Source: Cupriavidus necator N-1
GTDB taxonomy: Bacteria > Pseudomonadota > Gammaproteobacteria > Burkholderiales > Burkholderiaceae
Assembly (NCBI RefSeq): GCF_000219215.1
Contig: NC_015726.1
Span: 248,001 to 312,000, forward strand
Length of the DNA stretch: 64,000 nucleotides
Reading direction: 5' to 3'
Made by a program: the position numbers and the translations under genes. Shown one piece after another: positions 12,421 to 20,012 of this stretch. A model generated the notes under the pieces. It ran no database searches, was not told the origin of the DNA, and saw only the letters and a program-made list of their open reading frames with translations. How positions within the stretch are numbered: position 1 is the first letter of the stretch; every line of letters starts with the position of its first letter.

Positions 12421-13150
12421 GGCACTCCTACCATCGTCAGATGGTTGGTCCTGTCCATTAGAAGTCGCCAAAACCTGCGTTAAATCTGCCCAACCCCCGC
12501 CCCGGAACTGCCCGGAAACCAAGACTGGGGCGGAATTGGGCGCTTCTAACGGAATCGCCGGCGCGGCACCTTGCACGCCAAACCGGCCGGGTTGGAGCCC
12601 AGATTTTTTGAGATCCGCCCCGCGATAATTCACCTTTGCAGTTTTCCGACTTGCCGTCCTCGCACTGCCTCTCGACCTGAGCCACATACGAACGCAAAGG
12701 TAGCCTCCGAAGGCGGGAACCGACTGGTCATTCCCTGACAGCAGCGGCGCTGGCTCTACCAGCATGGAACGAGTTCGGGAATCTTCCAGCCCGGCCGCGG
12801 GCGAGCGAGGCTTCAGTTTCGGGGCCGCCAATACGTCGGTTCTGCTTCCTCCGATCGGGGCTTCGCGTCCACGGTCGATACACCCCATGCAGGGCCGGAC
12901 GGAGAGCGAAGGCCTGCTTTGCCTCCTCCGGGATTTGCTCCTATCGTGAATGTGCGTGTCGCTCTTATTTCAAAAGCCGAACCGGTGTGGATTTCCTGAG
13001 CTGACAAGTGTCGTTTGCCGCATTCGCCAGCAGCGGAACCTAGGGTGGCAGGGCAAGCATGCACTGACCTTGTAAGGTCTCGGCGTCTGGGACGACGAAC
13101 GTGGTGAAGAAGGCGGTCACCGATGTGCCGCCTGGCGTCGGAGAAAGCAA
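12421..13150. other. 730-bp region without a supported gene
   Basis: A perfect hairpin ACCATC-GTCA-GATGGT lies at 12430-12445, ten bases after the glmS stop. The rest shows only short or antisense open frames with no recognisable family. Base composition is visibly less GC-rich than in the housekeeping genes on either side. It may be eroded mobile-element sequence. I see no terminal repeats, tRNA or transposase fragment. Confidence 0.5.
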
Positions 13151-13780
13151 GTGAAGAATGCCCACCATGTGCCGCCCGATAAGCTGGCGCCGCACAGCCA
13201 GTCCATCCAGCCTGCATGGGTTCGCATCACGCACTGGCTGAATCTCATCGCTGTGCTCATCATGATGCTTAGCGGCTGGCGCATCTACAACGCATCGCCG
13301 CTGTTCGGCTTCCACTTTCCCAATGCAATCACTCTGGGCGGCTGGCTTGCCGGGGGCCTGCAGTGGCATTTTGCGGCGATGTGGCTCCTTGTCGCCAATG
13401 GCCTGTTCTATTTGGTGATGAATATCGTCACGGGCCGTTTCCGGCGGCGCTTCTTTCCGCTTTCCGTCCCAGCGGCACTGCGTGACATTGCAGCAGCCAT
13501 GCGTGGCAAGCTCGCGCACCCCAATCTGGCCGAATACAACGCTGCCCAGAAGCTCTTCTATGTGGGCGTGGTGGTGGTGATTGTGCTGACGGTGCTGTCT
13601 GGCCTTGCAATCTGGAAGTCGGTTCAATTTCCCTTGCTACGTGTATTGATGGGAGGCTACGACGCTGCGCGTTGGGTGCACTTCATCGGCATGAGCGCGA
13701 TTGCGCTATTCCTTGTCATCCATGTGGTGATGGTGTTGCTGGTACCACGCACACTCATCATCATGTTGCGCGGACGCTAG
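13151..13780 (+). CDS. Cytochrome b/b6-type membrane protein (YedZ1-like)
   Basis: A 209-residue integral membrane protein with four hydrophobic segments and the histidines expected for two b hemes: H28 (RITHWLN), H73 (QWHFAAMW), H177 (RWVHFIGM) and H191 (LVIHVVMV). It belongs to the cytochrome b561/hydrogenase cytochrome b-like group. The GTG start follows GAGAAAGCAA. The molybdopterin oxidoreductase begins about 20 bp downstream, so the pair should form a quinol-to-periplasm electron path. By order and type it corresponds to the YedZ1 protein that serves YedY1 in Azospira; that assignment is inference. Confidence 0.8.
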   Translation: MKNAHHVPPDKLAPHSQSIQPAWVRITHWLNLIAVLIMMLSGWRIYNASPLFGFHFPNAITLGGWLAGGLQWHFAAMWLLVANGLFYLVMNIVTGRFRRRFFPLSVPAALRDIAAAMRGKLAHPNLAEYNAAQKLFYVGVVVVIVLTVLSGLAIWKSVQFPLLRVLMGGYDAARWVHFIGMSAIALFLVIHVVMVLLVPRTLIIMLRGR

Positions 13781-13801
13781 TTCTCGATGCGGAGAATGGT
13801 C

Positions 13802-14575
13802 ATGAGCAAAGCTGAGCAAATCGTCAGGCTCGACCGCAAGCTGATATTGCACGATGCAACGCGCGAGCTGAGCATGCCATCTCGCCGACTGTTCGGAAAG
13901 CGTGCCATTACGCTTGGTGGCTTGCTACTGCTGACGGGCTGCAGCATTACCGACAAACCGTCGGTTGAGTCCTTTCTAATGGCAGTTTCGCGCTTCAATG
14001 ACCGCGTGCAGGGCTGGCTGTTCGACCCTAACCGGCTGGCGCCGACCTATCCCGAGTCAAGGCTGACGCGGCCGTTTCCTTTCAATGCCTACTACGGCCT
14101 CGCTGATGTACCAGAGGTAGATGCCAACGCGTTTCAACTGGAAGTCGGTGGCTTGGTCTCGCGCAGGACGGCATGGACCCTCGAAGAACTCTACGCGTTA
14201 CCGCAGACGGCGCAGGTGACTCGCCATATTTGTGTCGAGGGGTGGAGTGCCATCGGCAAGTGGGGCGGTACGCGCTTCTCTGATTTTCTCCAGCGCGTCG
14301 GAGCCGATACCACTGCAAAATACGTGGGCTTTCTCTGCGCCGATGACTACTACACAAGCATCGACATGCCCACTGCGCTGCATCCACAGACCTTGCTTAC
14401 TTTCACCTACGATGGCGAACGCCTGCCGCCGAAGTATGGGTTTCCGATAAAGCTGCGCATGCCCACCAAGCTTGGGTACAAGAACCCGAAGCACATTGTC
14501 GCGATTTACGTCACAAACAAGTATCCCGGCGGTTACTGGGAAGACCAGGGATACAACTGGTTTGGGGGCTCCTGA
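13802..14575 (+). CDS. Molybdopterin-dependent oxidoreductase, Tat-exported (YedY1-like)
   Basis: A 257-residue protein of the sulfite oxidase/MsrP fold, predicted to reduce or oxidise a periplasmic substrate using the Mo cofactor. Cys144 in TRHICVEGWSAIGKW is the expected molybdenum ligand, and RMPTKLGYKNPKHI is a conserved C-terminal segment. The N-terminus carries a twin-arginine motif SRRLFGKR, a hydrophobic stretch and a lipobox LTGC (Cys47), so it looks like a Tat lipoprotein. The ATG at 13802 is preferred because GGAG lies 7 bp upstream; in-frame ATGs at 13787 and 13796 are alternatives. It sits between the cytochrome b and MXKDX genes. Confidence 0.85.
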   Translation: MSKAEQIVRLDRKLILHDATRELSMPSRRLFGKRAITLGGLLLLTGCSITDKPSVESFLMAVSRFNDRVQGWLFDPNRLAPTYPESRLTRPFPFNAYYGLADVPEVDANAFQLEVGGLVSRRTAWTLEELYALPQTAQVTRHICVEGWSAIGKWGGTRFSDFLQRVGADTTAKYVGFLCADDYYTSIDMPTALHPQTLLTFTYDGERLPPKYGFPIKLRMPTKLGYKNPKHIVAIYVTNKYPGGYWEDQGYNWFGGS

Positions 14576-14639
14576 CCCCCCGAAACCTGACCGGCAAGTC
14601 TGCCGGCCTCTCTTTACCAATCCAATCAAGGGGTACAAC

Positions 14640-14912
14640 ATGAACAAGCGCCTGGTTTTGCTGCTTTCCTCCGCGGTGTTGCTTGCCAGCCATGCATGGG
14701 CACAGGACGCGATGAAGAAGGACGAGATGGGAAAGGGCGCCATGGGTGCCAGCGGCAGCATGGCGAAAGAGTCCATGGGGAAGGACGATATGGACATGAA
14801 AAAAGAAAAAATGAGCAAGAGTCACGCCAAGAAGCCCCACGAAAAGAAGGAGGGCATGAGCAAAGGTACGATGGAAAAGGATTCCATGAGCAAGGACGCC
14901 ACGAAGCAATAG
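14640..14912 (+). CDS. Methionine-rich MXKDX-repeat exported protein (MrpX-like)
   Basis: A 90-residue protein with a signal peptide (cleavage after ASHAWA, residue 21) and a mature part of 69 residues containing 11 Met and 17 Lys but no Cys or Trp. Repeats of the form M-x-K-D/E-x (MGKDD, MKKEK, MEKDS, MSKDA) identify it as a pentapeptide MXKDX repeat protein. Its gene follows the Mo oxidoreductase after 64 bp. In the related Azospira system a Met-rich periplasmic peptide is oxidised by hypochlorite and regenerated by the Mo enzyme; that role is inferred here from gene order and composition. Metal binding by methionines is the alternative. Confidence 0.85.
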   Translation: MNKRLVLLLSSAVLLASHAWAQDAMKKDEMGKGAMGASGSMAKESMGKDDMDMKKEKMSKSHAKKPHEKKEGMSKGTMEKDSMSKDATKQ

Positions 14913-15158: not shown

Positions 15159-15596
15159 ATGAAGAAGCTGTTCGCTGCACTCGCTTCCGCCGCCCTCGTC
15201 GGTACCGTTTTCGCGCAGACTGCTGTGCCAGCTTCCGCGACTCAGCCGCAGGGCGGGGCGTCGAAAGACCAGGCGAAGGTCGTCAAGGAGAAGAGCGCCA
15301 CGCTGGCAAAGGCCGACAAGAACCACAAGAGTGCCGGCGCGCATGAAGTAAAGGCCCAAGCCAGCACCAATAAGGAGAAGGCTGACGTAAAGGCCGATGC
15401 CAGTAAGTCAGCCGCCAAGGGCAGCCACCACAATGCGAGCAAGACGAAGGCCGCCCATACCGAGGCTGGTATGGCGAAGGCTGACGCAAAGAATGATTCC
15501 GACACGGCGAAAGCCAAGGCGGATGTGGCGAAGCCTGTGGCGCAGCCCGACGCCGCGAAGGCCGCGGCCAGCGTGGACAAGACGAAGAACCAGTAA
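15159..15596 (+). CDS. Lys/Ala-rich exported protein of unknown function
   Basis: A 145-residue protein with a clear signal peptide (MKKLFAALASAALVGTVFA, cleavage before QTAV). The mature part is low-complexity, dominated by Lys, Ala, Asp, Ser and Thr, with several His and one Met but no Cys. The ATG follows a strong CAGGAG ribosome site. It lies about 250 bp after the MXKDX gene on the same strand. I know no named family. It could be a periplasmic cation-binding or scavenging protein; lysine amines and histidines react with hypochlorite, so a supporting role to the MXKDX protein is possible but speculative. Confidence 0.7.
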   Translation: MKKLFAALASAALVGTVFAQTAVPASATQPQGGASKDQAKVVKEKSATLAKADKNHKSAGAHEVKAQASTNKEKADVKADASKSAAKGSHHNASKTKAAHTEAGMAKADAKNDSDTAKAKADVAKPVAQPDAAKAAASVDKTKNQ

Positions 15597-15855: not shown

Positions 15856-16266
15856 ATGGAGTCGACCCTGATAAATGGGTAGTTGGCCAAGGTGGCCAAC
15901 GTTGGCGTGGAAATGGTTCGCTATTACCAACGATGCGGAATGCTGTCGATATCCGAACGCGTGCATGGCGCCATTCGTCAGTATTCCGGGGACAGCCTGC
16001 AGTGGCATCATTTCATTCGCCGGGCCCAGGCACTTGGGTTCACCCTGGACGAGGTTCGTACGCTGCTGCAACTGAACGACGGCAGCAAATGCGGAACTGC
16101 GCGTGCGCTGGCCGAACAAACGCTGCAAGTCGTCGAGGAACGGCTGCGCGATTTGCGGATGCTGCGGACCGAGTTGAGAAGTCTTGTTGGGCAATGCCGC
16201 GACAATCGCGATGAGGTCATGTGCCCGCTCATTGCCAACCTGTGTGAGGCCAATTGGCCAAAGTAG
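15856..16266 (+). pseudogene. MerR-family regulator with amber codon at position 9
   Basis: The natural start appears to be ATG 15856, reading MESTLING and then TAG at 15880-15882, followed in frame by LAKVANVGVEMVRYYQRCGML, the MerR helix-turn-helix. The stop falls where MerR proteins usually have a residue just before the first helix (often Q or V), so a CAG-to-TAG change is likely. Translation could restart at TTG 15883, giving 127 residues, but no good ribosome site is seen. Three cysteines (C70, C105, C114 in TTG numbering) have the 35- and 9-residue spacing of the mercury ligands C82, C117 and C126 of Tn501 MerR. No merTPA genes lie nearby. It is either a recent pseudogene or a shortened regulator. 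Confidence 0.7.
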
Positions 16267-18497: not shown

Positions 18498-19658
18498 CTA
18501 CGCCGACTCTCCACAGGCTGCAACGCGGTGCCCCCGCGCCAAAATGTTGATCGCGCCGACCACGTCGGCGTGATTCGCATAGCCGCATGCCACACAGGCG
18601 AAGCTCGCCTGGCTCTGCCGGTTCTCGGCAGATACATGCCCGCAGCAAGGGCACGTGCGACTGGTGTGCTGTGGCGGCACAGCTATTAGCCAGCCGCCAT
18701 TCCACGCTAGCTTGTATTCCAGTTGACGCCCGAACTCGTACCAACCCTGATCGAGGATGGCCTTGTTCAGGCCGGACTTGGCCCTGACGTTCTTGCCCGG
18801 TTGCCCGCTTGAACCGGCCGCTGACTTGGACATGTTCCGTACCTTCAGGTCCTCGATACACACCATCGCTTGATTTTCGCTGATCGTGGTCGTGGCTTTG
18901 TGCAGGTAGTCGAGGCGGGCGTTACCGATGCGTGCGTGGATACGCTGGATTCGGGCCTTGGACTTCTTCCAGTTGTTGCTGAATTTCGTCTTGCGGCTCA
19001 TCGCCCGCTGCGCACGGCGCAGTCTGGCTTCGTGCTTCCTAAAGCTGTTGAGCGGCGCGAGGAAAGTGCCATCGCTCATGGTGGCAAAGCGAGCGATGCC
19101 CATGTCGATGCCGATGGCGCTGGTGGCTTTCGGCACAGGTCGCTCGACCTTCCGCTCAGTCTGGATCGAAACAAACCACTTGCCGCCCGACAGGCTGACG
19201 CAGGCATTGCGTACCTCACCGAGTACGTCGCGGCTGTTCCTGTATCGCAGCCAGCCCAGCTTGGGCAAAAAGATACGCGAGTTGGTCTGATCAAGCTTGA
19301 TTTGCTTCTGGTCGGGATAGCGGAAACTGTCGCCCAGACCCTTCTTCTTGAAACGCGGGAAGTCGGCCCGTTTTGCGAAGAAATTTGTGTAGGCCCGCTC
19401 CAAGTCCTTGAGCGTCTGTTGAAGAGGATGGACTGGTGCATCGGCCAGCCATGCTGTTTCCGTGCTGTTGCGCCACTCCGTGAGTTGCTTACACAGACCG
19501 GCATAGCTGAGCTTCTTTTCGCCTTGATCGTAACGCTGTTTCTGCAACGCCAGCGCCTTGTTATAGACGAACCGGCACGATCCGGCATAACGGCGCATGT
19601 TGCGCTGCTGCTCGCCGTTCGGCATCAATTCGTATTTGAATGCTTGAAGACGCTGCAT
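18498..19658 (-). CDS. tnpB: TnpB, RNA-guided nuclease of IS605-type element (copy 1)
   Basis: A 386-residue TnpB starting at ATG 19658 (MQRLQAFKYEL); longer in-frame extensions run antisense through the tnpA end and are rejected. The RuvC-like catalytic triad is intact: D185 (GIDMGI), E269 (CIEDL) and D364 (HADVVGAINIL). The zinc ribbon C336PxC339...C355xxC358 is also complete. TnpB proteins cut DNA next to a transposon-specific motif using an RNA from the element end, helping retain the element. The protein differs from copy 2 at one residue (A344 here, V344 there). Confidence 0.92.
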   Translation of the reverse strand: MQRLQAFKYELMPNGEQQRNMRRYAGSCRFVYNKALALQKQRYDQGEKKLSYAGLCKQLTEWRNSTETAWLADAPVHPLQQTLKDLERAYTNFFAKRADFPRFKKKGLGDSFRYPDQKQIKLDQTNSRIFLPKLGWLRYRNSRDVLGEVRNACVSLSGGKWFVSIQTERKVERPVPKATSAIGIDMGIARFATMSDGTFLAPLNSFRKHEARLRRAQRAMSRKTKFSNNWKKSKARIQRIHARIGNARLDYLHKATTTISENQAMVCIEDLKVRNMSKSAAGSSGQPGKNVRAKSGLNKAILDQGWYEFGRQLEYKLAWNGGWLIAVPPQHTSRTCPCCGHVSAENRQSQASFACVACGYANHADVVGAINILARGHRVAACGESA

Positions 19659-19697
19659 GGCCCAATCATACTCTTGGCCTACGAGCGACGACAATGA

Positions 19698-20012
19698 CAT
19701 TCGGCAGAGGACCTGCGCGACATATTTACCGGCGTTTGCGCAGATTTCGAAGCTGAACTGGTGGAGTTCGATGGGGAGGACGATCACGTTCACCTTCTTG
19801 TGAACTACCCGCCAAAGGTCGCGGTGTCCGCACTGGTAAACAGCTTGAAAGGGGTATCCAGCCGTATGATCCGAAAGAAGAACTACCCGAGCATCAGCAA
19901 GAAGCTATGGGGCGGTGCACTGTGGTCGCCGTCTTACTTCGCAGGGAGCTGCGGCGGTGCGCCCATCGAGATCATCCGCCAATACATTGAGCAACAACAG
20001 ACGCCGCATTAG
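19698..20012 (+). pseudogene. tnpA: TnpA (IS200-like Y1 transposase), N-terminally truncated, copy 1
   Basis: The C-terminal two-thirds of an IS200-type transposase is present: the HUH motif HVHLLV, LVNSLKGVSSR, LWSPSYFAGSCGGAP and the nucleophile tyrosine in EIIRQYIEQQ. An in-frame TGA at 19695-19697 lies upstream of SAEDLRDIF, and the normal N-terminal strand (about 40 residues, HLVFVTKYRR-like) is not recognisable. The remaining possible start is GTG 19761 (83 residues). The same defect is present in copy 2, so it predates the spread of this element; movement probably needed TnpA supplied in trans. Confidence 0.75.

Follow-up and report, generated by a model that had tools for sequence, protein, structure and literature searches.

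The window examined here is a stretch of 64,000 nucleotides of the Cupriavidus necator N-1 genome (bases 248001–312000 of contig NC_015726.1, C3 below; genome of 8.48 Mb on four contigs). After glmS it carries, as one same-strand run, three genes encoding a membrane cytochrome, a molybdenum-cofactor (Mo) enzyme and a small exported protein rich in methionine and lysine (the MXKDX protein). Judging from its sequence, this trio is probably a methionine-sulfoxide operon of the YedZ1-YedY1-MrpX type, placed under the in-trans control of a TIGR02943/sigmaE-type sigma factor that it would share with the methionine-sulfoxide reductase gene msrB. This reading is carried by a promoter-like site common to the trio and msrB, and by the joint loss of this site and of a sigma/zinc anti-sigma pair among genomes of the same genus.

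Gene content and linkage of the trio

The Mo gene was searched at E <= 1e-40 in 60 genomes of the same genus and in 300 genomes of the order (Burkholderiales), and was present in 26/60 and 34/300 of them, respectively. From 71 distinct places listed, 54 loci with wide flanks were retained as the linkage set, in which the window locus is L068. A second, named set consists of the best 80 of at least 583 matches; it is not random, some of its loci are ended by contig ends, and it includes in part the same places as the linkage set. The Mo gene has a cytochrome match beside it in 54/54 loci of the linkage set and in 79/80 of the named set, while a small Met-rich open reading frame (ORF) lies nearby in 30/54 and 59/79, respectively. 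The linkage of the three genes is far beyond chance.

The original prediction, made from the letters of the window, had claimed three adjacent same-strand genes with the order and content of the YedZ1-YedY1-MrpX system, the first for a four-His membrane cytochrome b. The arrangement of the genes is as it described (Table 1). The cytochrome reaches 86.4 bits on PF01292 in the profile search (cut-off 30.1), with no MsrQ match in this search, and when the window protein is aligned with the relatives extracted from the loci (53/54), its His 28, 73, 177 and 191 do not vary, which bears out the four-His assignment. The protein is the predicted electron donor of the Mo enzyme. Order and content also agree with the YedZ1-YedY1-MrpX type, the likeness to the Azospira set being one of domain content, gene order, NCBI family models and annotated relatives (Caballeronia SL2Y3), and not of Azospira sequences.

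In the window clade (L068–L077) the order of the genes is cytochrome, Mo enzyme, MXKDX protein (Z-Y-X). Its members have almost no flanking ORF in common, except for the pair L068/L069 and the subgroup L075–L077 (a further pair, L068/L074, looks spurious). Since the flanks differ across the clade, the trio travels without a regulator. In the sister clade, which comprises nine loci of the same genus and family, a SigF-like gene adjoins in 8 and the order is X-Z-Y in 7; here, SigF-like designates a BLAST match to the sigma of contig C4 of C. necator or to that of L078, and not a curated family.

A promoter-like site shared with msrB

In the C. necator genome, the exact pattern TGTAAG-N16-CGACNAA occurs twice, namely before yedZ1 (Table 1) and before msrB (TIGR00357, 198.7 bits, cut-off 113), where the site begins 77 nt 5′ of the gene. 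The msrB product has no evident signal peptide. Of the 13 genomes carrying the operon, 11 have exact matches to the same pattern, 22 in total, and each of these precedes yedZ (10, nine of which were assigned from the coordinates of the Mo-gene search), msrB (4) or a gene for an exported DGAR-repeat protein (8). Furthermore, the window site is the best match within the 64 kb to the consensus of the meningococcal sigmaE (−35 GTMAGBWTT, 12–13 nt, −10 CGTCTAAH), which, in the available part of the source, drives msrA/msrB (PMC2893595): it agrees at 14/17 positions with a spacer of 12, and six other places in the window have 4 mismatches.

The C. necator genome encodes an ECF (extracytoplasmic function) sigma of the TIGR02943 family followed by a small zinc-type anti-sigma (Table 1), whose motif, C-X25-H-X3-C-X2-C, lies inside the range published for ZAS proteins, as far as the consulted part of the literature gives it. 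We surveyed the 60 same-genus genomes, 59 of which have msrB, and counted a site when it fell within 250 nt of this gene. The TIGR02943 sigma occurs in 37/60 genomes, which are the same 36 that have the anti-sigma above cut-off plus one (G048). The msrB site is found in 31/36 genomes with the anti-sigma versus 2/23 without it (Fisher p = 2e-9, uncorrected for kinship). As for the 13 operon-type carriers, the sigma is present in 10, all of which have the yedZ site (10/10), as does 1/3 of the sigma-less ones. This co-loss of pair and site is the strongest evidence pointing to the sigma/anti-sigma pair as the likely reader of the site.

The third group of sites lies directly 5′ of ORFs for exported DGAR-repeat proteins, at 8 places in 7 genomes (L130, L131, L136, L139, L142, L144, L146 and L147). 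A member of this family adjoins the sigma/anti-sigma pair in C. necator (Table 1) and in three other genomes (G002, G029 and G045). The family is multi-copy, with 6–20 matches per genome in 20/20 genomes searched, and the one or two members tested matched no Pfam or NCBIfam family. It could represent a further component of the regulon.

In two other lineages (L099 and L119), a TGTAAG-N16-CGACCAA-type site was observed near the gene of an exported protein with a CSSCPPAD or CDSCPPAD motif, which by eye we take to be DUF1223-like. This protein is another possible member of the regulon.

Types of control among the relatives

Two types of site were distinguished upstream of the loci: the E type, TGTAAG-N16-CGAC[GAT]AA, and the F type (SigF), GTAACC-N16-CGAA. 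E sites occur in 10/54 loci of the linkage set versus 0.13 expected from mononucleotide shuffles, 8 of these 10 being loci from which the pattern was derived. F sites also occur in 10/54, versus 0.41 expected for the region upstream of Z alone, a figure to be read with 7 of the 10 preceding X. No locus has both. The two types keep different company. In the linkage set, 9/10 F loci have an adjacent SigF-like gene, and the same holds for all 15 F loci of the named set, in which 79 loci were usable and 3 have an E site; on the other hand, none of the E loci, 10 and 3 in the two sets, lies beside such a gene. The single sigma adjacent to the 10 E loci, in L103, belongs to TIGR02943 and is accompanied by an antisigmaE gene; this site was found by the rule. 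A TIGR02943 sigma also stands beside yedZ in Caballeronia telluris (L242), where a one-base variant of the site (TGTAAT-N16-CGACTAA), missed by the rule, was read by eye.

Around the window operon, no SigF-like or NrsF match was detected within 17 kb, none of the 37 Sigma70_r4_2 matches of the genome falls there, a GTAACC-type site was not found upstream, and a sigma-70 scan found nothing. The original prediction, which had declared the Azospira-type sigF/nrsF regulators absent, is thus right for the surroundings of the operon and wrong for the genome, given that contig C4 encodes a SigF-like sigma and NrsF. Its corollary, that control must differ from that of Azospira, stands: no SigF/NrsF pair is adjacent, and the data favour a regulon of the sigmaE/zinc-anti-sigma kind that includes msrB. 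A linked SigF/NrsF pair is a variable trait of the YedZ1-YedY1-MrpX module, and many relatives are without it.

The C4 pair provides the material for a different view, in which the enzymes and their cycle are the same and the operon is controlled in trans by this SigF-like/NrsF pair, the type of control known from Azospira and Brucella, or by the ECF sigma beside the resident MsrPQ. Indeed, the only NrsF match of the genome has an adjacent ECF sigma (C4:790723), an ECF sigma lies upstream of the C. necator msrP gene, and a TGTCAG-N16-CGACCAA look-alike is present on the upstream strand of the NrsF-linked sigma. Moreover, a GTAACC site was found in only 9/14 SigF-adjacent loci of the linkage set and 15/23 of the named set, so that SigF may read other sites. 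However, the GTAACC-type sites go with adjacent SigF-like genes, and for this reason we rank control by SigF/NrsF in trans second and consider it unlikely; the upstream region of the window operon, lacking such a site, and the TIGR02943 sigma adjoining L103 argue in the same direction.

Control by the TIGR02943 pair has itself to be weighed against several observations. Reversed as a control, the exact pattern matches 12 times in the 13 carriers, and a search of the C. necator genome for CGACRAA with one mismatch gives 7 matches versus 13 for its reversed control; as the looser search falls below its control, only the strict pattern is informative. The E pattern was drawn from the ten loci of the window clade, so that its presence there in 8/10, no more than about 120 nt from the cytochrome gene (once as TGTCAG; L070 and L073 are without), follows from the way it was built; independent instances are limited to the msrB sites and to the E sites of L103, L107, L205 and L240. 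Compared with the meningococcal consensus, the window site has 3 mismatches in 17 positions and is a resemblance, not a full match. Two genomes (G041 and G006) keep the operon without the sigma and without either type of site, the site being missing before both yedZ and msrB. Another (G049, in 730 contigs) has the yedZ and msrB sites, with no sigma or anti-sigma found in it, while G048 has the sigma and neither an anti-sigma match nor the msrB site. The msrB site is missing from five genomes that have the anti-sigma and present in two that do not. Some of the 8 DGAR sites could be due to chance, given the multi-copy nature of the family. In addition, 29/54 loci have neither type of site nor an adjacent SigF-like gene, which means that other controls exist and that the sigmaE wiring is one of several. 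Finally, a search for sites cannot reveal the substrate of the enzyme.

Both other regulatory loci of the genome (Table 1) have features of their own. The SigF-like/NrsF pair (L007, L008) is divergent from a neighbouring operon, presumably of the DUF692/DUF2063/DoxX-like kind as judged by eye from the translations, and a GTAACC-N16-CGAA site was seen by eye in the spacer towards this operon. The canonical MsrPQ genes (L005, L151) are preceded by an ECF sigma gene and by an ORF for a membrane anti-sigma-like protein, and hence have a control of their own.

The MXKDX protein

The third gene product scores 62.5 bits on TIGR02953, "pentapeptide MXKDX repeat" (cut-off 41). With the signal peptide judged by eye, its mature part, 69 residues long, contains 11 Met and 17 Lys, and a recount gave exactly the figures originally reported. 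The protein is predicted to be an oxidant sink and a substrate of the Mo enzyme.

Met-rich periplasmic proteins can also bind Cu(I). The MXKDX protein may accordingly be conceived as a periplasmic binder of Cu/Ag (or another metal) whose Met ligands are kept reduced by the Mo enzyme, with metal rather than chlorine as the trigger. The protein has a sub-threshold match to the CopL family (11.3 bits, cut-off 40), an ORF of the MerR family lies 1 kb downstream (at 15883; 118 bits on the model for mercury MerR, cut-off 151), and the enterobacterial plasmid copy of the trio (L350, see below) adjoins a two-component system; moreover, MsrPQ is tied to copper stress in E. coli in the available part of one report (PMC9302797). 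However, the MXKDX protein is below every metal-family cut-off in Pfam and NCBIfam, no metal gene other than the MerR-like ORF was recognised by eye among the ORFs at 8–20 kb, and the partner sharing the site is msrB, which speaks against a metal trigger. We therefore give this alternative a low probability. The MerR-like ORF was also considered as regulator of the operon and dropped, this flank being common only to L069 among the ten clade loci.

The Mo enzyme

The ORF of the Mo enzyme opens at 13787, and the start common to many 257-residue relatives is 13802. The protein scores 107 bits on PF00174 in the profile search, and its nearest named proteins carry Cupriavidus and Ralstonia labels. 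Cys144, numbered from 13802, is part of R-H-I-C-V-E-G-W, a motif invariant in 31 aligned sequences. The same alignment shows as invariant the stretch P26-x-R28-R29 ... L44-x-G46-C47 (L-T-G-C47 in the window protein), and in 54/54 loci, including that of the window, a lipobox Cys comes after a twin-Arg stretch under a rule that is permissive at each lipobox position. Thus, the Cys144 of the original prediction is retained, and its periplasmic location is not: because a lipobox Cys follows the twin-Arg signal, the YedY1 enzymes considered here are probably Tat-exported and lipid-anchored in the membrane beside their cytochrome.

With respect to family, the enzyme scores below the NCBIfam cut-offs of MsrP (78.7/207), SorA (52.6/600), SoxC (44/420) and SorT (10.3/570), and far below those of SorA and SoxC. 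The genome also encodes two SoxC, one SorA, one SorA-like protein and one canonical MsrP with MsrQ. The active-site loop is CVEGW in the window enzyme and in the C. necator MsrP, whereas the four proteins of the SorA/SoxC type have CSGN or CGAN. In a maximum-likelihood tree of the 54 loci plus these five enzymes, the four sulfite-dehydrogenase types are separated from MsrP and all 54 (support 100/96), although the branches are long and the exact place of MsrP is unsure; 52 rows of the tree form one clade at 99/99. Clustering with sulfite dehydrogenases, which had been set beforehand as the outcome speaking against the original prediction, was not seen; the enzyme is on the MsrP side, outside the SorA/SoxC clade. 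An AlphaFold model of only moderate quality (pLDDT 73, pTM 0.67) was used for the fold class alone; the nearest solved folds in Foldseek were 1XDY, which ranked first, and 1XDQ, and a sulfite dehydrogenase followed closely. An identity as SorA, SorT or SoxC is rejected by these scores and by the separate clade, and one as MsrPQ by the MsrP score together with the PF01292 partner, which has no MsrQ match. The enzyme is a predicted methionine-sulfoxide reductase (MSR), and would be a second, distinct envelope MSR beside MsrPQ.

That the Mo enzyme acts mainly on small S-/N-oxides or sulfite, the MXKDX protein being an unrelated exported basic peptide, is very unlikely: the sulfite-oxidase fold, the Foldseek proximity of a sulfite dehydrogenase and the 24/54 loci without a detectable Met-rich ORF, in which the enzyme can work alone, are in its favour, but the SorA and SoxC scores, the CVEGW loop, the position in the tree (its long branches notwithstanding) and the promoter-like site shared with msrB speak against it.

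Spread of the trio and neighbouring features

Relatives of the Mo enzyme were found in 134 records of a plasmid collection, including Escherichia (58), Klebsiella (13) and Shigella (3); those listed are about 57% identical to the window enzyme, apart from one partial match at 65%. On the one enterobacterial record inspected, the IncFIA/IncFII conjugative plasmid NZ_CP043289.1 (L350), the complete trio of cytochrome, Mo enzyme and Met-rich protein lies 2 kb from repA. It adjoins a divergent response regulator and an ATP-binding protein, that is, a two-component system and a third kind of control. The Met-rich protein of this plasmid has 25 bits on TIGR02953, below the cut-off of 41.

Within the window operon, the terminator-like scan that gave the small hairpin before the MXKDX gene (Table 1) returned 6 candidates versus 4.1 expected by chance; the hairpin is a weak candidate for a processing or attenuation site. 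A conserved intercistronic hairpin at this place was considered and rejected: it seems conserved by eye and folds in individual relatives, and the consensus fold of 10 sequences is empty. Downstream of the MXKDX gene, a gene for an exported Lys/Ala-rich protein is shared only with L069 among the ten clade loci. The MerR-like ORF has a TTG start right after an in-frame TAG and, by eye, is missing its first residues, so that it is possibly truncated or a pseudogene.

Table 1. Positions of the trio, its promoter-like site, the proposed regulators and other features mentioned in the text. Positions without a contig prefix are those of the window.
Feature	Position	Strand	Details
yedZ1-like four-His b561-type membrane cytochrome	13151-13780	+	GTG start, 209 aa; PF01292, four invariant His
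yedY1-like sulfite-oxidase-fold Mo-cofactor enzyme	13802-14575	+	257 aa; PF00174; Tat signal and lipobox
mrpX-like exported Met/Lys-rich MXKDX protein	14640-14912	+	90 aa; TIGR02953
Promoter-like site TGTAAG-N16-CGACGAA (sigmaE/MseR type)	13071-13099	+	51 nt 5′ of the cytochrome GTG start
Small G+C hairpin between Mo enzyme and MXKDX genes	14591-14606	+	weak; terminator-like scan
ECF sigma (TIGR02943)	C1:2550280-2550870		264.5 bits, cut-off 162.2
Zinc-type antisigmaE (NF052368)	C1:2550062-2550202		68 aa, follows the sigma; 63.8 bits, cut-off 50
DGAR-repeat protein adjoining the sigma/anti-sigma pair	C1:2549623-2549985		
SigF-like/NrsF pair	C4:790723-791319		divergent from neighbouring operon
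Canonical MsrPQ	C3:3537980-3540014		
Exported Lys/Ala-rich protein	15159-15596		145 aa, no family match
MerR-like ORF	15883-16266		PF09278
ORF presumably resembling IS605-type TnpB	18498-19793	-	by eye; zinc-finger-like C-terminus

Proposed mechanism and significance

In the mechanism that we propose, oxidants such as hypochlorous acid (HOCl) would convert Met residues to Met-sulfoxide, both in the exported MXKDX protein and in envelope proteins. The Mo enzyme, Tat-exported and probably lipid-anchored, would reduce Met-sulfoxide back to Met with electrons of the quinone pool passed on by the four-His cytochrome, while the MXKDX protein would serve as a sacrificial periplasmic methionine pool. 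Oxidation of the zinc anti-sigma would free the TIGR02943 sigma, which would then transcribe yedZ1-yedY1-mrpX and msrB, so that one regulon may repair methionine in both compartments. HOCl is put forward as the oxidant by analogy with the systems compared below; the inducer cannot be assumed, because H2O2, diamide and singlet oxygen failed to induce the meningococcal sigmaE, according to the accessible part of the report (PMC2893595).

By this analysis, the range of a known chlorine-defence module grows by a clade in which the textbook regulator is not alongside, and a replacement for this regulator is proposed. The predicted regulon unites YedZ1/YedY1/MrpX and MsrB, which independently supports a methionine-sulfoxide function for the Mo enzyme. 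YedY1 enzymes are further predicted to be lipoproteins, and an exported DGAR-repeat family that has no Pfam or NCBIfam model emerges as a possible additional member of the regulon. Copies of the Mo gene occur on conjugative plasmids of enterobacteria, in one case within a complete trio, which suggests that the natural job of the module is wider than perchlorate reduction. In a broader view, which we judge about evenly poised between right and wrong, the trio would be a regulator-free cassette plugged repeatedly into the oxidant-sensing regulator of its host, be it SigF/NrsF, sigmaE/zinc-anti-sigma in trans or a two-component system; the Cupriavidus sigmaE regulon would then join MsrB, a lipid-anchored MSR with its Met sink and, in several species, the DGAR proteins as a further methionine/HOCl-defence effector.

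Comparison with known systems

The YedZ1-YedY1-MrpX set of Azospira suillum PS, with SigF/NrsF, was reportedly described by Melnyk et al. in 2015 (mBio e00233-15). For mrpX and yedY1 of Azospira, the available passages of citing papers give mutant phenotypes and a model in which a Met-rich sink and a Mo reductase form a cycle (PMC8315932, PMC4623255, PMC5748585, PMC10746228). To judge from these passages, the exported Met-rich peptide, the Mo methionine-sulfoxide reductase, the cytochrome subunit and the linkage of the genes are alike in the window. On the other hand, the window operon has no adjacent SigF/NrsF and a different promoter-like site, shared with msrB, and no perchlorate-island gene was recognised by eye among the window ORFs at 8–20 kb. 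No entry named Azospira was present among the 80 named loci or in two lists of 120 proteins, mostly without names, and a chlorite-dismutase search aimed at an Azospira-like perchlorate island gave 0/6 in genomes of the guessed family.

The Brucella melitensis operon bcrXQP (BcrS/AbcS), as presented in the part of the report at hand, is HOCl-induced, contributes to HOCl resistance and likewise combines an MXKDX protein and an MSR pair in a single operon (PMC8315932). It differs in having an adjacent ECF16 sigma and GTAACC...GCGAA sites (Table 1 of PMC8315932), whereas the window has no adjacent sigma and TGTAAG...CGACGAA. Closer to the window in sequence is plasmid p1 of Caballeronia sp. SL2Y3, where SigF, DUF1109, cytochrome b/b6, molybdopterin oxidoreductase and MXKDX genes follow one another; the three-gene order is the same and the Mo enzyme is 75% identical, but a divergent sigma-DUF1109 pair is present there and not in the window. 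The C. necator MsrPQ shares with the window pair a sulfite-oxidase-fold Mo enzyme, the CVEGW loop and a membrane haem partner; however, its MsrP is larger (389-aa ORF, 488 bits on the MsrP model) and pairs with MsrQ, as opposed to the b561-type PF01292 partner, the lipobox and the low MsrP score of the window enzyme.

As for control, the closest parallels are the sigmaE/MseR system of N. meningitidis and RpoE2/HrsE of H. influenzae, which, in the passages available (PMC2893595, PMC3240639, PMC7907618), likewise have a small zinc-motif anti-sigma and a methionine-sulfoxide reductase target; in H. influenzae, msrAB is under RpoE2, a sigma with a link to HOCl (PMC7907618), and the −35/−10 site with its 12-nt spacer resembles that of N. 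meningitidis sigmaE/MseR (PMC2893595). Their regulons hold msrAB and a DoxX operon, and a target of the YedZ1/YedY1/MrpX type is not named in these passages. We found no report of a sigmaE/MseR-type sigma over such a trio in searches of an open-licence library. Taken together, the trio, its chemistry and its SigF-type control are already published, and what the present computation adds to them is the sigmaE-type wiring, the site shared with msrB, the lipobox, the link to the DGAR proteins and the trio on an enterobacterial plasmid.

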